Below, in pieces: positions 12,184 through 25,336 of a stretch of DNA of 64,000 nucleotides. Position 1 is the stretch's first letter. Each line of letters opens with the position of its first letter. Source of the DNA: Olivibacter jilunii (GTDB taxonomy: Bacteria > Bacteroidota > Bacteroidia > Sphingobacteriales > Sphingobacteriaceae); contig NZ_LR027850.1 in the NCBI RefSeq assembly GCF_900607235.1, forward strand, positions 1 to 64,000, in the 5' to 3' direction. The notes beneath the pieces were generated by a model. That model was given only the letters and a program-made list of their open reading frames with translations. It ran no database searches and was not told the DNA's origin. A program made the position numbers and the translations under genes.

Positions 12184-15100
12184 ATGAAATTAACCTTAAC
12201 AACTAACCTATGTGCTTTACTCTTGTTTTTTAGTGTCGTTGCGAATGCACAAGTGCTTATCAAGGGTAATGTCTTTTCGACTATGGAAAATGAGCCCCTT
12301 ATCGGAGCAACCGTAAAAGTGAACGGAAAGGCTGTTGCCGAGACGAAGAGTAGCGACGCTTTCTTTTCATTTATGAGTGATAGCTCGGAAGTCTGGGCGG
12401 AAATTTCCTATCTGGGCTACGAGACCAAACGATTAAGTCTTTATGCAAATCAACCTAATCTTGTTACACTTGATCCTATCACAGGAACTTTGGAGGAAGT
12501 AACCGTATCCACCGGTTATCAACAAATACCGAAGGAAAGGGCGACGGGCTCTTTTGAAAAATTAAACAACGAGCTCCTGAACCGATCTGTCAGCACAAAT
12601 GTGCTCGACCGGCTCGAGGGAGTAAGCAATGGCTTGGCATTTGATAACCGAAATTATAATGTGAATCAGTCCGGTGGTAATCCCGCCATACGGATTCGCG
12701 GTGTTAGCACCTTGTTTTCTTCTTTAGACCCGTTAATAATTTTGGATAACTTTCCTTATGAAGGTAATATAAGCAATATTAACCCCAATGATGTGGCATC
12801 TATTACCGTGCTAAAGGATGCTGCAGCGAGTTCCATCTGGGGAGCGCGGGCAGGTAATGGCGTTATTGTAATAACAACCAAGAAATCTTCCGCTAATCAG
12901 CCTTTGCAGGTAAACTTCAATTCGAATGTGACCATTCAGAACAAACCCGATCTTCGTCGATTGCCGCTTATGTCATCTTCGGATTACATCGATGTTGAAC
13001 AGATGCTGTTTGAAAATGGATACTATAACAATAGTGAACAGAGCCTCTCGAAGCCGGCGTTTACACCTGTAATCGAATATCTGATTGCCAGGCGTGATGG
13101 AATTTACACGGAGGAAGAAGCAAAGGTTTTAATTGACGATTTGCGGTCAAAGGATGTAAGGGACGATTTCTTGAAATATGTCTATAGAAATCAGGTAAAT
13201 CAGCAGTATGCATTGAATGTGAGCGGCGGCAGCGCAAGCTACACCTATATGTTTTCCGCTGGTTACGACCGTAATATCGGGAATCGGTATGGCTTAACCG
13301 ATACAAGAAGAACATTGCGTTTGGTAAATTCGATCAAACCGTTGAAAGGGATGGAAATCCAAACATCGTTACAGTGGACTTTACTCGACAACGAAAATAC
13401 CAGTGCATCGGGTTATGGGCAGATTCGGGCAGCGGACAAAGATCTTTACCCTTATGCCCGGTTGGCAGATGGTTTTGGAAGCCCTTTAACTATTGCTAAA
13501 GATTATCGGAAAAGTTATACGGATACAGCAGGGAGGAATAGGCTGCTCGATTGGAATTACTTCCCGCTGCTGGAAAAAGGTAGGTCAGAAACTAAAGAGC
13601 AGGACTTACTCTTTAACGTAGGGGTAAATTATGAGATTACAGAAGGCTTCAGCGCTGAACTTAAGTATCAGATGGAGCGGGGTACAAACCAGATAGACTA
13701 TTTCCGTGGACTTGATACCTACTATACGCGCGACCTGATCAATCGGTTTACGCAGATAGATAATGGCGTTATCAGTTATCCGGTGCCGATGGGCGGCATT
13801 TTGGAGAATACACAAAGTAGGCTCCAGGCACATTATGCCCGTATGCAACTGAATTACAAAAAGAACTTTGGCAGTTTGCATGAATTGGTGGCTTTGGGAG
13901 GCGCTGAGTTGAGGGAGACAAATTCAAGTAGTATGCGAAGTACCATTTATGGCTATAATGATCGCTTGCTTACTTATGCGCGTGTAGATCAGGTAACGAG
14001 ATTTCCAATCTATGATAACTTAGGCGGTCTCAGTACAATTCCCGGAGAACCCTTTCAGTTCAGCGATAACACCTATCGTTTTGTTTCGGCTTTCTTAAAT
14101 GCGTCTTATTCCTACAAGGCACGGTATATAATTTCAGCTAGCGCTAGACGGGATGCCTCGAATTTATTTGGAGTAAAGAGTAATCAGAAGGGAGTGCCTT
14201 TATGGTCGGTCGGAATGGCCTGGAACATTGCTGACGAACCGTTCTGGCGGGTGAAATGGGTAGATGGCCTGAAGCTCCGGACAACCTACGGATACAGTGG
14301 AAATGTAGACAATTCTAAGTCGGCACTCACTACTATTAGCTACGCTCCTTCCAATCCATATAACAACTTGCCTTATGCCAATGTAGTTAACCCGTCTGAC
14401 CCATCTTTACGTTGGGAGCAAGTCGGTACGTTTAATGCCGGCTTGGATTACTCCTTATTCGGAGGCAGGTTAAACGGAAGTTTTGAGTATTACGGGAAAA
14501 ATACCAAGGATCTTTTTGCATCTACACCGATAGACCAGACCACCGGTTTTCTCAACTTCGTTCGGAACAGTGCAACAACCCACGGTAAAGGCTTTGATGC
14601 CCAAATGAATGGATACGGGAATATAGGCGCCTTTAAGCTAGCGGCAAACTTGTTGTTAAGCTATAACCGAACAAAGGTACTCGAATATTTTTCGGAAAGC
14701 GCCCGCGCGAGCTCTTATATTAATAATGGGGTCTTCATTTCGCCTAAGAAAAATGAACCGATCTATATGTTATACAGTTACCGATGGGGAGGTTTGGATA
14801 GCGATGGCAATCCGCAAGGGTATGTGGGTGATGAATTAACAACAGATTATCGCAGGATCAGCCGGGAAACTACTTTCGAGGATCTTGTCACAAACGGTTC
14901 ATCGGTGCCTCTCTATTTTGGTTCTTTCCGACCCAGCATTTCTTGGAGGGCAACTACCTTGTCGGCAAATATTTTATTCAGATGGTCTTATTACTTTCGG
15001 AGACAATCGATCAATTACAGTGAGCTCTTTACCAACGGAAAAACGCATGCTGATTACAGTTTGCGGTGGCAACATCCTGGCGATGAGCAGCACACGAATG

Positions 15101-15381
15101 TGCCCGGCCTGTCTTATCCCGCCAATTCGGCACGCGATGATTTCTACGCCAAATCGGAAATCCTGGTTGATAAAGCCGATCATATCCGTTTAAGGGATAT
15201 TAGGTTGTCGCAAGACTTTGGCAATCTCCGAAAATGGCATATCCGAAATATCCAGGTTTTTATCTACGCAAATAATCTTGGGATTATTTGGAAAGCTACC
15301 AAATCGACGGAAGATCCTGAATATGGTACGGCTCTTGGGCCGCCCAAAAGTCTTGCGTTCGGTATTAATGTCTCTTTGTAA
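12184..15381 (+). CDS. SusC/RagA-type TonB-dependent outer membrane transporter
   Basis: 1065 residues. Signal peptide to about residue 22 (VANA-Q), a carboxypeptidase-regulatory-like beta domain at ~24-100, a TonB-contact-like EEVTVSTGY near 105-113, the plug at ~115-225 (VTVLKDAAASSIWGARAGNGVIVITTKK region), then the beta barrel to the C-terminus. No STN domain, so it is not built to signal to a FecR. It forms the barrel under the SusD lid encoded 11 bases downstream and takes up an oligomer in a TonB-dependent way. The substrate is unknown: no glycosidase lies nearby, and a TlpA-type protein precedes it. Confidence 0.93.
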   Translation: MKLTLTTNLCALLLFFSVVANAQVLIKGNVFSTMENEPLIGATVKVNGKAVAETKSSDAFFSFMSDSSEVWAEISYLGYETKRLSLYANQPNLVTLDPITGTLEEVTVSTGYQQIPKERATGSFEKLNNELLNRSVSTNVLDRLEGVSNGLAFDNRNYNVNQSGGNPAIRIRGVSTLFSSLDPLIILDNFPYEGNISNINPNDVASITVLKDAAASSIWGARAGNGVIVITTKKSSANQPLQVNFNSNVTIQNKPDLRRLPLMSSSDYIDVEQMLFENGYYNNSEQSLSKPAFTPVIEYLIARRDGIYTEEEAKVLIDDLRSKDVRDDFLKYVYRNQVNQQYALNVSGGSASYTYMFSAGYDRNIGNRYGLTDTRRTLRLVNSIKPLKGMEIQTSLQWTLLDNENTSASGYGQIRAADKDLYPYARLADGFGSPLTIAKDYRKSYTDTAGRNRLLDWNYFPLLEKGRSETKEQDLLFNVGVNYEITEGFSAELKYQMERGTNQIDYFRGLDTYYTRDLINRFTQIDNGVISYPVPMGGILENTQSRLQAHYARMQLNYKKNFGSLHELVALGGAELRETNSSSMRSTIYGYNDRLLTYARVDQVTRFPIYDNLGGLSTIPGEPFQFSDNTYRFVSAFLNASYSYKARYIISASARRDASNLFGVKSNQKGVPLWSVGMAWNIADEPFWRVKWVDGLKLRTTYGYSGNVDNSKSALTTISYAPSNPYNNLPYANVVNPSDPSLRWEQVGTFNAGLDYSLFGGRLNGSFEYYGKNTKDLFASTPIDQTTGFLNFVRNSATTHGKGFDAQMNGYGNIGAFKLAANLLLSYNRTKVLEYFSESARASSYINNGVFISPKKNEPIYMLYSYRWGGLDSDGNPQGYVGDELTTDYRRISRETTFEDLVTNGSSVPLYFGSFRPSISWRATTLSANILFRWSYYFRRQSINYSELFTNGKTHADYSLRWQHPGDEQHTNVPGLSYPANSARDDFYAKSEILVDKADHIRLRDIRLSQDFGNLRKWHIRNIQVFIYANNLGIIWKATKSTEDPEYGTALGPPKSLAFGINVSL

Positions 15382-15392
15382 ACTTAACGACT

Positions 15393-16730
15393 ATGATAAA
15401 AATCAAGCTATTACTCCTTGTTGCTTCTTTTTCAATTTGTGCCTGCAATAAATATCTTGAACTGAAGCCTGATAAAACGATGGTATTGCCTGAGACAGAA
15501 CAGGATATGCAGGCACTGCTCGATAATGTCAATTTTATGAATGCCGCTGAAAGCTCGCTGGGCGAAATGGCTGCTGACAACTACTACTTGACGGATAATG
15601 ATTGGCAATCGCTCGACATTAATGATAGGGAACTGTATATATGGGGCAAAGATGTTTTTGGAACGGGATGGGGAAGCAACTATCGGACTATTATGTATGC
15701 CAATACGGTACTGGAAACATTGGAAAAGAATCCCTTAATAGATATTACAGCAAGAAATCGGTTAAGAGGTAGTGCGTTGTTTTTTCGCGGTAACACCTTG
15801 TTTCAGCTGGCGCAGTTATATATGTTGCCTTACGATAAGCAGATCGCTGCTACAGCACCGGGGCTACCGCTTAAGTTCACCGCGGCAATCGATGATCCTT
15901 CGGTTAGATCGAGTATGGAAAAAACCTATGCGCAAATCGAAATGGATTTGAGGGAGGCAGCTGCTTTGTTACCCAAGGAGAAACCACTTTTTCCAACCCG
16001 TCCAGGCAAAGCTGCTGCATTTGCCGGGCTTGCTCGTCTCCATCTTGTTATGGCCGATTTTGAGCAGGCAGAGCGTTTTGCTGATTCTAGCTTGATGCTT
16101 CATGCAACGTTGATCGATTACAATCAGGTCATGAATTCTGAAACTCCTTTCGCTCCCTTTAATGGGGAAACGATTTTTTATTCACGGTTTTCGGGCGGAG
16201 GTACCCTGAGCCAATCTTACCGCAAAGTAGATACAACCTTATATACCATGTATGCAGACGATGATTTGCGCAGGACTTTGTTTTTTCGTGAACAGGATGG
16301 CCATGTCTACTTCAAGGGTAATTACGATGGACAAAATACCTCCGCACTTTTTAATGGTATCACATCTGCTGAAATGCTATTGACGAAAGCAGAGTGTTTG
16401 GCTAGAAAGGGTAAATCCTCAGAAGCATGGAATGTGTTATCCGAACTCCTTCGCTATCGCTATTCAAATAATAATTTTAACGAATTTATGCCAATTGGAG
16501 CCACCAATGTATTAAACTTTGTTTTGAATGAGCGAAGAAAAGAGCTGCTGTTTCGGGGAATTAGGTGGGTTGATCTGCGGCGGTTAAATAAGGAAGAAGA
16601 TTTAGCAACTGTGTTGACCCGGAACGTTCTTGGCAAAGAATATATAATGTTACCAAACAGTAGCAGATATGTTTTCCTTATACCGGACGATGTAATCCAG
16701 CAAAGCGGAATGGAGCAAAACGTACGGTAA
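15393..16730 (+). CDS. SusD/RagB-type surface lipoprotein
   Basis: 445 residues, short for the family. Lipoprotein signal with the lipid cysteine at residue 18 (SICAC), then the usual LELKPDKTMVLPETEQDMQ entry. A TPR-like helical middle (FFRGNTLFQLAQLYMLPYD) and the C-terminal block RKELLFRGIRWVDLRRLN, which is diagnostic of SusD_RagB proteins, are visible. It acts as the ligand-binding lid of the preceding SusC. It closes the TlpA-SusC-SusD operon and is followed by a convergent terminator. Confidence 0.92.
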   Translation: MIKIKLLLLVASFSICACNKYLELKPDKTMVLPETEQDMQALLDNVNFMNAAESSLGEMAADNYYLTDNDWQSLDINDRELYIWGKDVFGTGWGSNYRTIMYANTVLETLEKNPLIDITARNRLRGSALFFRGNTLFQLAQLYMLPYDKQIAATAPGLPLKFTAAIDDPSVRSSMEKTYAQIEMDLREAAALLPKEKPLFPTRPGKAAAFAGLARLHLVMADFEQAERFADSSLMLHATLIDYNQVMNSETPFAPFNGETIFYSRFSGGGTLSQSYRKVDTTLYTMYADDDLRRTLFFREQDGHVYFKGNYDGQNTSALFNGITSAEMLLTKAECLARKGKSSEAWNVLSELLRYRYSNNNFNEFMPIGATNVLNFVLNERRKELLFRGIRWVDLRRLNKEEDLATVLTRNVLGKEYIMLPNSSRYVFLIPDDVIQQSGMEQNVR

Positions 16731-16734
16731 GGTT

Positions 16735-16758
16735 ATGCCGGGAAATTTTTCCCGGCAT
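16735..16758. terminator. Bidirectional terminator between convergent genes
   Basis: ATGCCGGG and CCCGGCAT arms with an A/T-rich centre (AAATTTTT), between the susD stop and the stop of the minus-strand small protein. Confidence 0.75.
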
Positions 16759-16764
16759 TGATCG

Positions 16765-17127
16765 CTACTCACGTAATGATACATGAGAAGTTTCCTGTTT
16801 GCTTTGGATCGCCTCGTCGATTTCATCCAGTAAAGTAGATGTAATGTCTGGCTGTTTTTGATTGTCCGGAGCATTTGGATTACTGACGTCTGCCTGAACC
16901 GCACAAAGGTTGTTTTGACCCGGGCAATTTGGCGCGGATGAACCGATATAAGAATAATTCGTTGGATCATCCATATCCCCGCCGTTGAAGGAAAACCAAG
17001 CGGTTACACGGACTTTCTTATCCGCTGTCGGTTTTTCCTTTGCATTTAAACTGAAATATAAGAACAATGCTAAAATAGCTCCGAAGAATGCGACGACAAG
17101 TAGTCGCGCGTTAAATATACGTGCCAT
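16765..17127 (-). CDS. Small membrane-anchored or secreted protein, DUF6520-like
   Basis: 120 residues. One hydrophobic segment at ~9-27 (VVAFFGAILALFLYF) acts as a signal or anchor. The exported part has WFSFNG, a cysteine-bearing CPGQNNLCAVQA segment, and an acidic C-terminus. The two spaced cysteines and overall size resemble the small DUF6520-type proteins of Bacteroidota, which is only a likeness. It stands alone and faces the AraC gene's downstream end. Function unknown. Confidence 0.6.
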   Translation of the reverse strand: MARIFNARLLVVAFFGAILALFLYFSLNAKEKPTADKKVRVTAWFSFNGGDMDDPTNYSYIGSSAPNCPGQNNLCAVQADVSNPNAPDNQKQPDITSTLLDEIDEAIQSKQETSHVSLRE

Positions 17128-17416
17128 ATGTATACATGCATTTAAGGAAAATGCTACCTTTATTTTATACTTTTATGTTTTAGAATCGGGGCATCTTCAG
17201 GTCAGCCAAACCTTTCGGCCTGTTTACTGCAAACGAAGGTCGAAATTATATGAAGTACCGGCCTACCCGGAAATACTGCAAATTTTCTGTTGTGGATGGT
17301 TAAGTAGTTCTTCATAATGAATAGTTTTCATTTTTAGGGATAAAATTAGCTTATATCGATACCGGCTGTTTGCGGAAAGCGGCTTTATGAGTTGCGGAAA
17401 GTGGCTTCGCGGCTGT

Positions 17417-18412
17417 CTATCCTTTCTGTATACGGTATGCGCTCGGACTAAGCCCGTAATAGGATTTGAAGGCATTTGTGAAGCTTGCTATACCGGAATA
17501 ACCTAATAGATGCGCTACTTCCGAAATGGTGTAACGGCTATCGTCAAGAAGTTCCGTCGCGCGCTTCAGCTTTGTTTGCTGAATGTACTGCCCCAACGAG
17601 TTACCGTAAATTTCGCAGTGGATTTTTCGTAACCATCTTTCTGATATCTTGTAATGATGTGCCAACTGTTTTATGGTTTGCACCTGTCCATGCTGTATCT
17701 GTAGTTCAATAACGCTGCGGATAGCTTCTACTTTTTGATTACTGTATGTTGAGTCGGTCACTATGGACTGCATATCTTCTTGGCTTAGAATGAGCAAATT
17801 GAAACAGAGTTCGTATACTTTTAAATCCATAGCCAACCGTTTTAGGGGCGGTAAAGCAAAGAAGTTGAGTAACCGCAGCATAATATGTTCGCTTATGGGG
17901 AACTGTTTGTTGTACCTAACATTTCCAGCTTTTTCTTTCCAGTTTCCCAACAGTTTTTCGAAACCGCGCCACTCTTTTTTCCCATGCCGTAGAAGCCAAT
18001 TTGGCTTAATCACAAAATAGAACAGCTGGTGTTTTCCCTTATCAAAATGGGTAAGGTACCGGCCTTGAGGTACGTATACCTGTGTATAGTGCGCTTCTTG
18101 GCTTTGCAGTACTTTTTGTGCCTTATTGGATGTGTGGATGCTGTACGTGCCCTTTAATTGGTAAAGCCAATACAAATCGGATAGCTTGCAATGTATGGGT
18201 ACTTCTACCGGTGCCTCTGCATGCACATCAGCTAGGCAGATAAGCGCGTCGGGTGCGTCGTAATATTGCTCAAGTACGGAAAATTGATCGCTTTGCCAGT
18301 AGTTTACATCGGCTAATGTTAAACGGTACGGGGTGGTGGCGGGCACGCGCTCGCTGTAGAGTAAATATCCTTGGTTGTTGGTTGGTAAATCAATATGTAC
18401 GGCTTTGAGCAT
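17417..18412 (-). CDS. AraC-family transcriptional regulator
   Basis: 331 residues. The C-terminal ~100 residues form the double helix-turn-helix of AraC proteins: IKQLAHHYKISERWLRKIHCEIYG, then ATELLDDSRYTISEVAHLLGYSG and SFTNAFKSYYGLSPSAYR. The N-terminal ~200 residues are a sensor domain of cupin-like size that I cannot assign. It is a single gene with no operon partner; nearby targets could include the small secreted protein or itself. Confidence 0.88.
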   Translation of the reverse strand: MLKAVHIDLPTNNQGYLLYSERVPATTPYRLTLADVNYWQSDQFSVLEQYYDAPDALICLADVHAEAPVEVPIHCKLSDLYWLYQLKGTYSIHTSNKAQKVLQSQEAHYTQVYVPQGRYLTHFDKGKHQLFYFVIKPNWLLRHGKKEWRGFEKLLGNWKEKAGNVRYNKQFPISEHIMLRLLNFFALPPLKRLAMDLKVYELCFNLLILSQEDMQSIVTDSTYSNQKVEAIRSVIELQIQHGQVQTIKQLAHHYKISERWLRKIHCEIYGNSLGQYIQQTKLKRATELLDDSRYTISEVAHLLGYSGIASFTNAFKSYYGLSPSAYRIQKG

Positions 18413-18854: not shown

Positions 18855-19268
18855 CTAATTGATTAATAGAAACCCATTCGCATTTATAATCAATATATCG
18901 TGATAGGGGTTTAATGTAAGCAGATCTTTATCTCCGGTAATAATTGCTTTCGCCTTTACCGTCAAAGCTAATTCAAGAAATTTATTGTCTTTCTCGTCCC
19001 TACAATCGGTTATGGTGTATTTAGGGCTAATATGTTTTACCACAGATTCGAACTCCTCAATAATTTCCAGTCGTAAATCCAAGGGTATATATTTGTCAAA
19101 CTTTGGCCGTACTAGAACCCCATTAAGTTCGTCTAATGTCTCTTTTGAAACAATAATCTGACCTGATTTTCTAGCTTTATCAAATGCTTTCCGAGCAACG
19201 GAATTAGGAAGTATAATGGCACTAATTAATGTATTTGTGTCTAGAATATAAAAATCAGTCTTCTTCAT
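18855..19268 (-). CDS. PIN-domain toxin of a type II toxin-antitoxin pair
   Basis: 137 residues, a whole PIN domain of the COG1569 type. The acidic metal-binding positions are visible: D10 in ILDTNTLISA, an acidic residue in KETLDEL, and TDCRDEKDNKFLELA followed by ITGDKDLL. Such proteins are Mg-dependent RNases. The gene starts inside the antitoxin gene (14-base overlap), the standard order antitoxin then toxin. It sits between two 200-bp direct repeats, which suggests a gained or mobile module. Confidence 0.85.
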   Translation of the reverse strand: MKKTDFYILDTNTLISAIILPNSVARKAFDKARKSGQIIVSKETLDELNGVLVRPKFDKYIPLDLRLEIIEEFESVVKHISPKYTITDCRDEKDNKFLELALTVKAKAIITGDKDLLTLNPYHDILIINANGFLLIN

Positions 19269-19473
19269 TCAATAAATTGTTCAACTCATCTTCTGTGAGT
19301 CCGTTTTTTGCTGCAATTTTTCCAACCTTATTTAAAAGTCTTTCGAACTCAACTTCTTTCATTTCCTTCAATATTGACGCAATCTTTTTTTCATATTTGG
19401 CCTTTAAGGATGGAGTAGTGTTTCTCCAAACTTTAGCTAAAGATGAGTCGACTTCTAATACTATCCTATCCAT
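19255..19473 (-). CDS. Antitoxin of the PIN pair
   Basis: 72 residues, charged and helical, without an obvious N-terminal DNA-binding fold. It carries a LLNKVGKIAAKNGLTEDELNNLLNEE tail typical of small antitoxins that wrap the partner PIN protein. It is encoded first and overlaps the toxin start. A 19-bp inverted repeat 35 bases upstream is a plausible operator. The assignment rests mainly on position and size. Confidence 0.8.
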   Translation of the reverse strand: MDRIVLEVDSSLAKVWRNTTPSLKAKYEKKIASILKEMKEVEFERLLNKVGKIAAKNGLTEDELNNLLNEED

Positions 19474-20069: not shown

Positions 20070-20305
20070 CTGTTCCCCTTTCACTAATTAGTTGACGGTT
20101 TTTGCCGATTAGATGGGAGAATTTTGGCCTTTTATGTCAATTGGCTTGCAACAACGGTAAGGTAAAAAAATTCTTTTCGTTTCTTTCTCCGAAGCCTCAC
20201 TTTTGGATTGTGATCACCAGAAAAACCTTCTGCTTGGCCAGACAAGAGGTCGGAAGTACCCTCATCCGTAAATAGGGTTATGTTTAAAATTTAATGGTAG
20301 TTAAC

Positions 20306-20437
20306 ATGTCACAGTTACAAATTGAACTGATCAGTCGGGTATTGCCTATTCTAGGAGCACCACTTTCATTAAACCAGCTCATCGAGCGGAATGAGTTGAA
20401 CGATGATGAAAATAAATGCCCGTTTGAAATTTTTTAA
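20306..20437 (+). CDS. 43-residue peptide, candidate signal or modified-peptide precursor
   Basis: ATG at 20306, stop TAA at 20435-20437. The product starts MSQLQIELIS, has a central proline-containing hydrophobic stretch (RVLPILGAPLSL), an acidic hinge (NELNDDEN) and a short end KCPFEIF with the only cysteine. There is no signal peptide. This leader-hinge-short-core shape resembles a ribosomal peptide precursor, but I do not recognise the family. A 9-bp GC-rich hairpin lies between it and the acyltransferase-like gene, as is common where a precursor must be made in excess. Followed in the same direction by an acyltransferase-like gene and a LytS/LytTR pair. The alternative is a leader peptide or a chance frame. 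Confidence 0.5.
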   Translation: MSQLQIELISRVLPILGAPLSLNQLIERNELNDDENKCPFEIF

Positions 20438-20444
20438 CTAAACC

Positions 20445-20466
20445 GGAGGATGCCCACGCATCCTCC
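20445..20466 (+). terminator. Hairpin between peptide and acyltransferase-like gene
   Basis: GGAGGATGC pairs perfectly with GCATCCTCC around CCAC. The T-rich stretch that follows (CTGTTTCAATTTTT) is not immediate, so termination is probably partial. Confidence 0.6.
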
Positions 20467-20494
20467 TCTGTTTCAATTTTTAAGAACTAAAATT

Positions 20495-21514
20495 ATGAAT
20501 ACTTATCTGGAAAAAATTCAACCTCTTGTTGCTAAATATGCAAATGAAGAACTATTCAATAATGACGCCATCATTCGTTCTTTTGCTTTCTTCGGTGCGC
20601 AATTGCAGGCTTTTGAAGCGGGTGTGGAGCCGAAAAAATTGCTTCAACTGTTCCGTTGTGCACGCCTCCATCAGGCCCTGAATTTGTTTGATCAGGAGAA
20701 ACGGGAAGCCTTAGCGCTATTTGATCAGCCTGCTTGGCATAAACTGCGTAAGTACCTAGCCAAACCGGGTATTGTAGCAACGTATCATGTTGGTTCTTAT
20801 CGTTTAATAGGCCGGTGGTTGATGCAACAAAAGCTTCCCTTTGTTTTGCTTGTAGCAACGCGCGTGACTAAGCAAACGGCTTTTTCAACTTACCTGCAAA
20901 GGAACAAACGACAGGGTTTTCAATTGCCGCCTATTTTACTGGCGGAAGATCCTCACGTAATCCGTAAAATGTGTAACTATATTAAGCAGGGTTTTTACAT
21001 ACTGACTTATGTGGACGGTGGGCGTGGATGTTTTACGGATATTGACTTGGATAGGCTGGCCCCCGTTCCCTTCTTCAGCGGAAAACTTTATATTCATCGC
21101 GGCATCCCCTTGCTGGCCAGACTGGCCGAATGCCCTGTTTATCCCATCGTTGTCCCTAGGACGACGGCACATGTACCAAAACTGATCGCGCATGATCCGA
21201 TATATGTGGCATGGGATGAGAATACATTGGATCATTTGAATGCCGTTTTATGTAAACTTTTCGGCATATTGCAAGATACGTTAACACAAAGTGTTTATTT
21301 ACATCAATGGGAGCATTGGCTCTCGGGGCAACCGACGGGAAGATATCGGAGAAATAAGAAATTGAGGATCGAGGAAGGCAACGCCTACCGGTATTTCCCT
21401 TATCGCAGCACGAAACAATGTTATATGTTATGCGCCGACACCTTGATGAGCTACCGAATTAGTGAAGATCTGTACCGCGATTTTGTAAATCTCCTCAAAT
21501 ACTTATATATTTAA
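20495..21514 (+). CDS. LpxL/HtrB-like acyltransferase-fold protein
   Basis: 339 residues from the ATG at 20495. A longer frame from 20450 would begin inside the hairpin and is less likely. The order of motifs follows the LpxL/HtrB lysophospholipid-acyltransferase fold: ATYHVGSYRLIGRW (~95-108) at the catalytic HxxxxD/E position, GFYILTYVDGGRG in place of the 'mlvDqd' strand, then VPFFSGKLYIHRGIPLLARLAECPVYPIVVPR, which matches the 'FFG...G...lA...g.PvyP' block. The acidic residue of the HxxxxD/E dyad is R103 here, so normal catalysis is doubtful. There is no N-terminal membrane anchor. The neighbours are a small peptide and a LytS/LytTR pair rather than lipid A genes. A role in acylating or handling the peptide is an inference. 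Confidence 0.65.
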   Translation: MNTYLEKIQPLVAKYANEELFNNDAIIRSFAFFGAQLQAFEAGVEPKKLLQLFRCARLHQALNLFDQEKREALALFDQPAWHKLRKYLAKPGIVATYHVGSYRLIGRWLMQQKLPFVLLVATRVTKQTAFSTYLQRNKRQGFQLPPILLAEDPHVIRKMCNYIKQGFYILTYVDGGRGCFTDIDLDRLAPVPFFSGKLYIHRGIPLLARLAECPVYPIVVPRTTAHVPKLIAHDPIYVAWDENTLDHLNAVLCKLFGILQDTLTQSVYLHQWEHWLSGQPTGRYRRNKKLRIEEGNAYRYFPYRSTKQCYMLCADTLMSYRISEDLYRDFVNLLKYLYI

Positions 21515-21582
21515 AGTCCATACTACCTAAATAATTATAGAAGGTTACTGACCTGGGAGCTTAAATCTAACAAACACAGCTT

Positions 21583-22644
21583 ATGATGAAATGGTTACCC
21601 AAAGTAAGCGCTAAGACTGTTTATGCTCATATAGCAGCATGGCTCGTTTACGTTCCGATTATGTACCGATATAACCTGAAGGCATATCCTGATCCGTCTA
21701 TCGGCCGTATCATTGCATTGGTGATTTTGTTGGCGTTCACGTTTTACCTGATCTTGGCGCTGCTCTTTTGGTTGTTTCAACGAACGCGCAAGCGTCTCTT
21801 GCTTATGCCGTTGCTGGGTGCTGTTGGCCTGTTTATCTTATTTGCATGGGGCTATATTTATGTATTGGCCCCTGCTTTCGGCTGGAAAATTTATCGTGAG
21901 GATATTCCCTACTCACACAAACAGTTTGTGGCTAATGCTGGGCGCGTATTGAAAGAAATGGGTAAGTATGCGGCCATCTACTTTCTGTTTTATCATAATG
22001 TGCTAAAGAAAAGAAGATTGACTGCTTTGATGTTGCGGTTACGCAACTTACGTCGTGGTCTGCATCGTTATCGGTTAAAGGGAGAGGTTTCTAGGCTTTC
22101 GCCTCATTTTTTAATGAATGCTTTTAACCACTGCTACTCGCTCGTTTGTGATTTGAGTGAGGCCTTGGGCCGTCGGATTTTCTACTTGGCAGAGATTCTT
22201 AAATATGGCATGAGCGAACAAAATAGCCGAGTGCTGCAAACGGTTACCTTAGAACGGGAAGTATCGGAGACGGCGAAATTATTGAAGGCTTATTACGGTG
22301 ATGATAGCAGGAATGCACCAATCCGTTTGCTCTGCGCGGGCAATTATCGTGCTTTTCGCTTGCCTGCTTTTACGTTGATAAACTGTGTGGAGAATTTGCT
22401 GAAATATGCCGTACTTGATCACAGCCGACAGCAAGCGGTTCTTCGGGTGGTAACAGCAGGCGATACCTTACTGGTGACGGCAGTCAACGCAGTTAAGCAG
22501 GTCGAATCAAAAACGGTATCCAGCGGTTCGGGGCTAATTGACTTGAGAAATCGGTTACGGTACTTGTTGGGGGTGCATTTTACGCTAAGCTATTGGCGCG
22601 AAGGTGATCTTTTTATTTTATTTCTTGTTATTGAACGTCATTGA
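21583..22644 (+). CDS. LytS-type sensor histidine kinase
   Basis: 353 residues. Four or so hydrophobic segments in the first ~150 residues (for example IIALVILLAFTFYLILALLF), then a His_kinase domain with SPHFLMNAFN, placing the phosphorylated histidine at H175, and an ATPase domain with NCVENLLKYA and GSGLIDLRNRL. The family normally has N-S-L-N after PHF; here it is N-A-F-N. The membrane part has no extracellular sensor domain, so it may detect a small or hydrophobic ligand. Twenty-four bases before its LytTR partner. Confidence 0.9.
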   Translation: MMKWLPKVSAKTVYAHIAAWLVYVPIMYRYNLKAYPDPSIGRIIALVILLAFTFYLILALLFWLFQRTRKRLLLMPLLGAVGLFILFAWGYIYVLAPAFGWKIYREDIPYSHKQFVANAGRVLKEMGKYAAIYFLFYHNVLKKRRLTALMLRLRNLRRGLHRYRLKGEVSRLSPHFLMNAFNHCYSLVCDLSEALGRRIFYLAEILKYGMSEQNSRVLQTVTLEREVSETAKLLKAYYGDDSRNAPIRLLCAGNYRAFRLPAFTLINCVENLLKYAVLDHSRQQAVLRVVTAGDTLLVTAVNAVKQVESKTVSSGSGLIDLRNRLRYLLGVHFTLSYWREGDLFILFLVIERH

Positions 22645-22668
22645 TACTAAAGCAAATACAGAACAAAC

Positions 22669-23394
22669 ATGGACATCTTAACATGCGGTATTGTGGACGA
22701 TGATCCCCAAGCGGTACACCTGCTAAATACATACCTCAGCAAAATGCAGAACGTTCGGCTGCTTTTTAAAACGAATGATGCTACGGAAGCTCTTGCTAAA
22801 CTACGGAAATACCAACCGGATATCTTATTTCTGGATGTGGAAATGCCTGAGTTAACTGCTTTTGATCTGATTAAATGGGTAAATCCGGGTACAAAAGTGG
22901 TGCTTTGCACGGCTCATCGACAGTATGCTTACGATGGCTTCGAGCATCGGGTAGCGGACTTTCTGCTTAAGCCGGTCGATTTTGCGCGATTCTTCGACGT
23001 GGTTACCCGCTTACGTGAGTCGCAATTTCATGCCATTCTAAACGGTACACGGATTGCACAGGATTATTTTCTCGTGAATGCGAAAGATAAGCTAAAAAAC
23101 TATAAAATCCTTTTTGAAGATATCCTTTATATGGAAGCCGTTGAGGGTGGGGTAAAACTTGTACTGCGGGAAGAGGAGATTATGGTGAGCGAATCCTTGA
23201 CGCGGGTTTATCGCGCTTTGCCCAAGAACCTTTTTGTCCGTATTTCCAATGCTTTTGTTATTGGTACGGAATATTATAAAAACTATGCAAATGCTAAGGT
23301 TTATTTATATCACGTAGCTGAACCTTTTCCGATTTCTCGGATGAAACATCTTGCAAAAGATTTTTTTGACTGGCTAAATGAGCATAAGCTCTAG
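22669..23394 (+). CDS. LytTR-family response regulator
   Basis: 241 residues. Receiver domain with VDDDPQAV at the start and the phosphoacceptor D56 in LFLDVEMPE. A LytTR DNA-binding domain fills the C-terminal ~110 residues (DILYMEAVEGGVKLVL, then LPKNLFVRISNAFVIG). It is phosphorylated by the kinase encoded just upstream. The peptide/acyltransferase genes in the same run are the obvious candidate targets. Confidence 0.93.
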   Translation: MDILTCGIVDDDPQAVHLLNTYLSKMQNVRLLFKTNDATEALAKLRKYQPDILFLDVEMPELTAFDLIKWVNPGTKVVLCTAHRQYAYDGFEHRVADFLLKPVDFARFFDVVTRLRESQFHAILNGTRIAQDYFLVNAKDKLKNYKILFEDILYMEAVEGGVKLVLREEEIMVSESLTRVYRALPKNLFVRISNAFVIGTEYYKNYANAKVYLYHVAEPFPISRMKHLAKDFFDWLNEHKL

Positions 23395-23434
23395 CTCCTG
23401 GGTTTTGCCTTTCTAATTTTAACCTTAAAACCAT

Positions 23435-23710
23435 ATGAATAAGATAGACCTATTGATTCAAAGCGTTGTGCAAATTCATAAGTTTCTGGAAAGCCTCACT
23501 GAGCAGTGTTTATCGCCTCGTCAACATTTGCCCGAACGTTTGTTAAGTGCACAGGATGTAATGAATAAATTGAATATCAGTGAAGCTACTTATTATCGCT
23601 TTGTGAAGAAGGGGGCGCTTAAACCAAGGATGAAGGGGAGCCGACATTACTTCTATGAAGCCGATTTGGTGGAAGCGTTGGAAGAAAGCAAAAGACGCGG
23701 TAGAATTTAG
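23435..23710 (+). CDS. Excisionase/MerR-like helix-turn-helix protein
   Basis: 91 residues. The C-terminal half is a HTH_17 domain (LLSAQDVMNKLNISEATYYRFVKKG, then the wing GSRHYFYEADLVEAL). The N-terminal ~35 residues are helical. Proteins like this accompany mobile elements in Bacteroidota, but no integrase or relaxase is visible here. It follows the response regulator by 40 bases and may be the last gene of the run. Confidence 0.8.
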   Translation: MNKIDLLIQSVVQIHKFLESLTEQCLSPRQHLPERLLSAQDVMNKLNISEATYYRFVKKGALKPRMKGSRHYFYEADLVEALEESKRRGRI

Positions 23711-24163: not shown

Positions 24164-24805
24164 ATGGGAAAATTTTTAAAGGGAATCAATGGTGCTTTTT
24201 CAGGTAAGGTAGGTAACAACATCGGCGCGAGATGGCGTTCGGTTGATTACATGCGAAGTTTGCCACGACCTTCGAATAAACCGGCAACGGATGCGCAGTT
24301 ATCGCAACGAGCGAAATTTGGGATGGCGGTCGCTTTCTTAAGTCCGATTAAGGACCTGCTGAACATCGGCTTCAGCGATTTGCAGCAGACGAAGGCGACC
24401 GGTTACAACGTTGCCCTTAGGCAAATGTTGCAACACGGGGTAGTAGGAGATTATCCGAATTTGGAAATTGCCTATGAGCAAGTGAATTTGAGTCGTGGAC
24501 GTCTGGCACCTCTTTTTGGTCTGGAACTCGCGGAAACAAGCCCTGGCGAAGCTACCTTAACCTGGCAACCTAAAATGAACAGATTCACGGCCTTTGCCGA
24601 TGATGAGGTGATTGTACTGGTATACAACAAAAACAAAGCTTTTTTTGATATCATGGAGCAGTCCACACGGGCCGATGGCAACCTAAGCATCGAACTGCCA
24701 ACGGTCTTTTCCGGCGATGAACTCGCTGTGTGGGTAATTATGGCACACCGTGAAGGTATTGTAACGTCCAACAGTCAATACGCAGGATCGATCACTGTGT
24801 CCTAA
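24164..24805 (+). CDS. DUF6266 family protein
   Basis: 213 residues. The N-terminus MGKFLKGINGAFSGKVGNNIGARWRS and the RSLPRPSNKPATDAQLSQRAKF block are typical of this Bacteroidota family, whose N-terminal half is conserved and C-terminal half is a beta-rich domain. There is no signal peptide. Function unknown; the family is often found alone or beside tiny hydrophobic proteins, as here. A strong terminator follows. Confidence 0.88.
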   Translation: MGKFLKGINGAFSGKVGNNIGARWRSVDYMRSLPRPSNKPATDAQLSQRAKFGMAVAFLSPIKDLLNIGFSDLQQTKATGYNVALRQMLQHGVVGDYPNLEIAYEQVNLSRGRLAPLFGLELAETSPGEATLTWQPKMNRFTAFADDEVIVLVYNKNKAFFDIMEQSTRADGNLSIELPTVFSGDELAVWVIMAHREGIVTSNSQYAGSITVS

Positions 24806-24813
24806 ACTGCGCA

Positions 24814-24843
24814 TAAGCGAACCGACCTCGGTCGGTTTGCTTT
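24814..24843 (+). terminator. Terminator after the DUF6266 gene
   Basis: AAGCGAACCGACC pairs with GGTCGGTTTGCTT around TC, then TTTCGCT. Confidence 0.8.
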
Positions 24844-25123
24844 CGCTGACGAGTTTAGTTGTGCTTTGCGAGCGCCTACCGCTTATAGCCTACCGCATAA
24901 GGCTGATAGCTGACATCCGAAAGCCTGAAATAATTAGCCAATGTGATGATGAGCCAATGTGATGGCTGGATAGTAGCAGTGGCAGTAGCAGCAGTGCTTA
25001 ATAGCGTCTAACGCTTATAGCCTACAGCGTAAAGCCGACAGCTGACATCCGAAAGCCAACAACCAATAACCAACAACCAATAACCAACAACGAACAACCA
25101 ATAACGAATAACCAATAACGAAA
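24844..25123. repeat. Word-like intergenic repeats
   Basis: Two copies of a CTTATAGCCTACxGCxTAA ... GCTGATAGCTGACATCCGAAAG theme (24890 and 25013), then a run built from AACCAATAACCAACAAC units (25057-25122) that ends at the start of the next gene. No gene seen. Confidence 0.6.
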
Positions 25124-25336
25124 ATGGACGAAATAACAAAAAGAATCAAATCCCCAACACCGAAGTTCTTTAAAAAAATTAGAACGATCGGATTAACTTT
25201 AGGAGCGATAGGGGGGGCACTATTGGCTGCTCCGATCGCTTTACCGGCAACGGTAACTACCATTGCGGGTTACCTCGCTACGGCCGGTATTGTGGCTTCG
25301 GCGGTATCAAGCGTTACAAAAGAAGATAGGCCTTAG
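25124..25336 (+). CDS. Small hydrophobic protein, holin-like
   Basis: 70 residues. A charged N-terminus (MDEITKRIKSPTPKFFKK) precedes two hydrophobic, Gly/Ala-rich segments (TLGAIGGALLAAPIAL and TIAGYLATAGIVASAV) separated by a short turn. Size and layout are those of small holin-like membrane proteins that often sit next to DUF6266 genes. A perfect terminator follows. Function not known. Confidence 0.7.
   Translation: MDEITKRIKSPTPKFFKKIRTIGLTLGAIGGALLAAPIALPATVTTIAGYLATAGIVASAVSSVTKEDRP

Follow-up and report, generated by a model that had tools for sequence, protein, structure and literature searches.

Peptide signaling via membrane kinases is textbook knowledge in Gram-positive bacteria but, to our knowledge, has hardly been described in Bacteroidota. 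In the ComQXPA system of Bacillus, a small precursor without a signal sequence and with one invariant reactive C-terminal residue is encoded together with a lipid-transferring enzyme, a membrane kinase, and a response regulator, in a locus without an exporter. In the Agr and Fsr systems of Gram-positive bacteria, a Cys-containing peptide shares one operon with a membrane kinase and a LytTR regulator. Here, we describe a locus with a similar set of genes in a 64,000-nucleotide stretch of DNA from Olivibacter jilunii, family Sphingobacteriaceae (contig NZ_LR027850.1, positions 1 to 64,000; referred to as the window), part of a 6.7-Mb genome. Five plus-strand genes at 20306 to 23710, with intergenic gaps of 57, 68, 24, and 40 bases, encode a small peptide, an LpxL-like protein, a LytS-type kinase, a LytTR regulator, and a helix-turn-helix (HTH) protein. 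A preliminary description, made from the sequence alone, had listed the same five genes and gaps, and these match the sequence exactly. As in ComQXPA, a small precursor, a putative lipid transferase, a membrane kinase, and a regulator stand in one unit.

The unit looks like an undescribed cell-to-cell signaling system. On balance, we favor a reading in which four of the genes (peptide, LpxL-like enzyme, LytS, and LytTR) carry out ComQXPA/Agr-like peptide signaling, with the LpxL-like enzyme modifying the Cys core, probably by acylation. The precursor would be synthesized in the cytoplasm, lacking a signal sequence; the LpxL/PatA-fold enzyme would recognize its leader and most likely move an acyl chain onto the core Cys or an adjoining position. 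Because the unit encodes no factor for either step, we propose that leader cleavage and export would be performed by housekeeping factors. LytS would then sense the mature C-terminal peptide, of approximately 6 to 10 residues, through its membrane half and phosphorylate the LytTR regulator; this in turn would switch the operon itself and the genes attached to it locally, namely, the HTH/DUF6266 island in the window and rteC and tra in conjugative elements. The preliminary description had already linked peptide, enzyme, and kinase, and that association is borne out below by co-occurrence, selection, and tree concordance. The acylation and the reading of the product by the kinase, which it also proposed, are steps that we infer, as are cleavage, export, and the target genes.

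A conserved peptide gene upstream of the LpxL-like gene

The precursor gene of the window (20306 to 20437, plus strand) encodes 43 residues without a signal sequence, comprising a leader of about 37 residues and a C-terminal core, CPFEIF, whose codons lie at 20417 to 20434 on the same strand; an alternative start at 20294 would give 47 residues. The window peptide matched no Pfam or NCBIfam model. Among 94 nonredundant loci of the LpxL-like gene, a homologous same-strand open reading frame (ORF), mostly of 41 to 57 residues, lies directly 5' of that gene in 87 loci (the 87th being L027), at a median gap of approximately 70 bases. A Cys near the C terminus is found in 86 of these 87 peptides, and the core is usually the end of the ORF. 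Such a leader/core layout with a conserved core residue would suit precursors of ribosomally synthesized and posttranslationally modified peptides (RiPPs). The cores of other loci group into classes (CDFVVP, CDIFII, CNIVFPF, CPIRTF, CFFRTF, CIPYEGL, CDVILPGLDLL, and CCFDTQPPMPPGNQQ), and CCFDTQPPMPPG also occurs. Hence, of the Cys-Pro-Phe-like core expected earlier, the Cys is conserved and the Pro-Phe is not.

The Cys motif had been recognized in the window and an initial 18 loci, so 75 held-out loci were used to test it. An ORF of 35 to 60 residues with a Cys 5 to 7 residues from its end was present in 43 of the 75; for comparison, 111 of 2,871 random windows (3.9%) had one, as did the opposite strand in 10 of the 75 loci; the rate 5' of LytS, LytTR, SusC, and SusD genes was 4 to 7%. 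Compared over 47 codons, the window peptide and its counterpart from a second Olivibacter genome share 87% identity and differ by 19.5 synonymous and 6.5 nonsynonymous changes, for a ratio of nonsynonymous to synonymous rates (dN/dS) of 0.04, while the adjoining enzymes of this pair are 68% identical. Because this counterpart is so conserved, the 43-residue ORF is not a chance frame. Among 23 pairs of related loci, most had dN/dS values of 0.04 to 0.4, and the peptide is a real gene under purifying selection. Both checks that the preliminary description had proposed for the peptide, its presence upstream of LpxL-like homologues and its selection at the protein level, thus came out in its favor.

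The Cys lies 5 residues from the end in 38 and 6 residues from the end in 18 of the 86 peptides measured. This spacing in 56 of 86 peptides, together with cores such as CDFVVP, CDIFII, and CDFVIL, recalls the rings of staphylococcal autoinducing peptides (AIPs), in which the Cys is followed by four residues (PMC3673130). The core Cys could accordingly be cyclized with the C-terminal carboxylate to form a thiolactone pheromone, the LpxL-fold enzyme serving as the cyclizing acyltransferase. We regard this as very unlikely, as the peptides have no C-terminal recognition tail and the unit no AgrB, carboxylate activation is not known for the LpxL fold, and some cores (CDVILPGLDLL and CCFDTQPPMPPGNQQ) run on for 10 to 15 residues.

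The acyltransferase-like enzyme and the two-component system

The second gene (20495 to 21514, plus strand) encodes an acyltransferase-like protein of 339 residues. The protein of the window itself matched no Pfam model at an E value of ≤1; among 24 aligned sequences comprising it and its relatives, 21 matched PF03279 (best E value, 2.9e-11). An AlphaFold2 model built from the 24 sequences had a predicted local distance difference test score (pLDDT) of 85, and its sole matches in the PDB at E values below 1e-3 were LpxM and mycobacterial PatA, the matched PatA structure having been solved with palmitate and S-hexadecyl-CoA. The enzyme is therefore predicted to have the LpxL/PatA acyltransferase fold, in line with the LpxL fold that had been assigned to it from the sequence alone. 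With LpxL/LpxM and PatA it shares this fold, the catalytic His, a conserved D/G segment, and part of a C-terminal W motif; three residues are invariant in the family (His98, 92/92; Asp174, 93/93; Trp272, 93/93). It differs from them in having HX4R, HX4Q, or another combination in place of HX4E (HxGSYR in the window) and in lacking the RRWK end of the W motif and the N-terminal transmembrane helix. In the host genome, three other strong PF03279 proteins retain HX4E, and the N-terminal transmembrane helix of these proteins is absent from the LpxL-like enzyme. The LpxL-like gene also adjoins a Cys peptide and a kinase, unlike lpxL and lpxM, and not lipid genes. The simplest reading would be an active enzyme with an altered acceptor; a thiol acceptor would require a weaker base than a hydroxyl. 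A PqqD-like RiPP recognition element (RRE) at the C terminus of the enzyme was looked for by hhalign, without a match.

The LytS-type histidine kinase (21583 to 22644, plus strand; 353 residues) and the LytTR response regulator (22669 to 23394, plus strand; 241 residues) follow. LytS is next in 90 of the 94 loci and LytTR in 84, a co-occurrence that the preliminary description had asked for in support of its reading. The kinase matches His_kinase (PF06580) and the regulator matches Response_reg and LytTR, all above the Pfam cutoffs; these identities, and that of the HTH_17 protein, agree with those first given. By alignment, the phosphorelay residues are almost completely conserved: phospho-acceptor His in 89/89, N-box Asn in 88/89, receiver Asp (Asp56 in the window) in 82/82, and Lys in 82/82 homologues. 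The N-terminal half of LytS is hydrophobic (a simple hydropathy scan predicts 2 to 6 segments, depending on the family member) and contains no separate sensor domain, as had been noted before.

Inheritance of the unit and its genomic contexts

Phylogenetic trees were compared for the 50 loci that have all parts, with core classes that were assigned from the sequences by the analyst. Mapping the core class gives 6 changes on the enzyme tree and 8 each on the trees of LytS, the LytS membrane half, and LytTR, in contrast to 28 each on the SusC and SusD trees, where shuffled labels gave 26.8 changes (minimum, 21). Because of this difference, we conclude that the core unit consists of the peptide, the LpxL-like enzyme, LytS, and LytTR, which are inherited jointly, and that the SusC/SusD, MauE-like, AraC/Crp, HTH, and DUF6266 genes are exchangeable neighbors that recombine or vary. 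Four genes of the original five-gene set thus make up the core; the fifth, the excisionase-like HTH_17 gene (23435 to 23710, plus strand; 91 residues), is an accessory, with an HTH gene downstream in 29 of the 94 loci. All five genes are present as described but sit inside a larger SusCD/AraC/DUF6266 island.

The window carries a SusC (12184 to 15381) and SusD (15393 to 16730) pair upstream on the plus strand, and a same-strand SusC/SusD pair lies upstream, in consistent order, in 57 of the 94 loci. This arrangement would suit a unit whose true partner is the upstream SusC/SusD-TlpA-MauE set and which serves uptake of the peptide or of a nutrient via that transporter. Such a role is highly improbable: the 28 class changes, as many as in shuffles, contradict a specific pairing, distances are uncorrelated (rho between -0.1 and 0.1), and SusCD is missing from the surroundings of most Chitinophagaceae, conjugative-element, and CFFRT units. 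The tree discordance led us to reject SusC/SusD as the peptide's specific receptor or importer; the unit might still make general use of any SusCD.

Several observations weigh against peptide signaling with an acylated core. Since the peptide adjoins the enzyme gene and SusC lies approximately 5 kb away, physical linkage alone may explain part of the class concordance. The concordance holds at the level of classes only, as continuous distances between core and kinase showed no correlation (rho of 0.01 with the membrane half), and continuous covariation was rejected accordingly. No exporter or leader peptidase is encoded within the unit, and hhalign found no similarity to RRE/PqqD in the C-terminal part of the enzyme. 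The acid of the HX4D/E dyad is mostly replaced, position 103 being Arg in 58, Gln in 12, Leu in 6, and Ala in 5 sequences, so that acyl transfer is not assured. In addition, the peptide of L127 has no Cys and ends in KKNDLVWL, and a recognizable peptide is absent in seven loci, two of which have truncated enzymes.

The absence of an exporter, a protease, and a signal sequence, and the loss of the classical catalytic acid, would also fit an intracellular or membrane-tethered sensor, in which the peptide is never released and, with the LpxL-like protein, senses acyl-lipid or nutrient state for the kinase. The unit with the CFFRT peptide adjoins genes that resemble a solute symporter paired with a small membrane protein (putative names), which recalls nutrient-sensing LytS/LytTR systems. 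We nevertheless consider such a sensor improbable. The C-terminal Cys core varies between classes and is fixed within them, which is more ligand-like than scaffold-like, and ComX too has no exporter and no signal sequence.

The unit is spread across soil Bacteroidota, far beyond the window. The host genome has four paralogues of the LpxL-like gene. Across the order, 66 of 301 genomes have homologues, with a few matches to fragments only. Outside the order, homologues are rare: at an E value of ≤1e-10, they occur in 6 of 396 genomes drawn across the phylum, the host's own included. Chitinophagaceae with homologues include Terrimonas, Ferruginibacter, and Agriterribacter, and their units have little else in common around them. 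Plasmid and phage collections yielded no homologues. Within the family, the largest genus group, probably Pedobacter, has a conserved CFFRT-peptide locus.

Some copies lie in conjugative elements, upstream of rteC and/or tra genes (L020, L021, L034, L031, and L165 to L168). L021 and L034 carry a same-strand rteC (PF09357; 198 bits in L021) after the unit and then tra genes; L034 has a truncated enzyme, and no peptide was found there. L020 has the unit, rteC, other genes, and then tra (TraG, TraJ, TraK, and TraM identified), and L031 has tra genes (TraG and TraK) with a different gene between. A further gene family, f10, matched neither RteC nor any other Pfam model. The position of these units suggests peptide control of conjugation.

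A tandem GTGACA-n-GGGTGACA repeat lies 215 to 480 bp 5' of the enzyme gene in seven loci (L022, L029, L036, L070, L074, L078, and L082; nine with looser spacing), mainly of the CDVILPG class, and is nearly absent elsewhere in the loci. This candidate element is consistent with autoregulation and is offered as a lead only. No palindrome shared by all loci was found upstream.

In islands of the window type, TlpA-SusC-SusD genes lie upstream of the unit, and HTH, DUF6266, and CHAP or DUF5675 genes lie downstream. A recurrent module of TlpA-SusC-SusD, a small secreted Cys protein, MauE, and AraC or Crp (12184 to 18412 in the window) adjoins the unit and is not co-inherited with it. In the window, this module includes a small protein that looks secreted and has a CPGQNNLC stretch (16765 to 17127, minus strand), of a cluster that we take to be DUF6520-like and that has no Pfam match above the cutoff, and a divergent AraC-family regulator (17417 to 18412, minus strand); an AraC or Crp-like protein stands at this place in about 60 of the 94 loci. 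A small minus-strand gene pair at 18855 to 19473, located after the AraC gene and before the peptide gene, encodes a 137-residue PIN-domain-toxin-like protein and a 72-residue partner, recognized by eye only. Downstream, a DUF6266 gene (24164 to 24805, plus strand) has counterparts in 23 of the 94 loci; its predicted structure (pLDDT, 53) was too poor to interpret and was not used. DUF6266 genes occur with CHAP or DUF5675 genes at 24164 to 25336 in the window and in loci such as L098, L104, L106, and L123, and the same islands encode two further small proteins, one a membrane protein and the other lipoprotein-like with a hydrophobic segment at its C terminus. This downstream set looks like lysis or bacteriocin-type cargo.

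CHAP, DUF5675, and small membrane proteins downstream in many islands would fit a product that is a ribosomal antimicrobial lipopeptide, made by lipidation of the Cys peptide by the LpxL-like enzyme, with LytS/LytTR regulating only its production or immunity. A peptide with a modifying enzyme is a RiPP arrangement, and one copy lies inside a graspetide-type cluster: L037 (4312 to 9580) holds a grasp-with-SPASM-like cluster with an LpxL-like enzyme, LytS/LytTR, and a peptide ending in PSCCFDY, its ATP-grasp (TIGR04192, 170 bits) and SPASM (TIGR04193, 74 bits) maturases both scoring under the curated cutoffs. We judge an antimicrobial product unlikely, given that the kinase and regulator are the sole constant partners, that no conserved immunity or export gene is seen near Chitinophagaceae and CFFRT units, and that the core class tracks the kinase tree.

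Comparison with described systems

No description of the gene set, of DUF6520, or of related Bacteroidota peptide pheromones was found in the open-access literature; because the search covered open-access papers only, this is not proof of novelty. Going beyond peptide signaling by the unit itself, we advance, more tentatively, the possibility that these peptides form a new class of pheromones, ribosomal and acylated, in which an LpxL/PatA-fold enzyme would be the first of its fold known to act on a peptide, and which would provide widespread quorum sensing in Gram-negative Bacteroidota and control excision and transfer in some conjugative elements. If true, Bacteroidota would gain a testable signaling language, built on a compact repeated unit whose peptide family is new and whose enzyme is of the lipid A type. 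Ribosomal peptides would gain a new modification, and the control of gene-spreading conjugative elements would become more accessible. Where one genome carries several paralogues with different cores, signal specificity could be tested directly.

A ribosomal peptide with an attached lipid, as proposed here, is also the hallmark of lipidated RiPPs such as selidamides/nostolysamides, prenylated RiPPs, and ChrH-type lipopeptides. Some of these are made by GNAT acyltransferases. Other lipidated RiPPs use prenyltransferases or the lipoprotein pathway (PMC12636315). Among the papers retrieved, none describes RiPP lipidation by an LpxL-fold enzyme. The copies in conjugative elements resemble RteA/RteB-RteC of the Bacteroides element CTnDOT, where a two-component system likewise stands ahead of rteC and tra genes; here, and in some copies only, LytS/LytTR with the peptide and enzyme replace RteA/RteB.

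The unit differs from ComQXPA in its reactive residue, which is Cys and not Trp, in its enzyme, which has a predicted LpxL/PatA fold where ComQ is an isoprenyl-diphosphate-synthase-like prenyltransferase, in having LytS/LytTR for ComP/ComA, and in its occurrence in Bacteroidota. With Agr and Fsr it shares a Cys core close to AIP sequences and a membrane kinase with a LytTR regulator in one operon. It differs from them in that its kinase is of PF06580 and not of the AgrC type, its precursor has no C-terminal tail, and an acyltransferase-like enzyme is present; neither an AgrB protease nor a tailed AgrD occurs among the conserved neighbors. Since the features of ComQ, AgrB, and AgrD are absent, the unit is a member of neither ComQXPA nor Agr.

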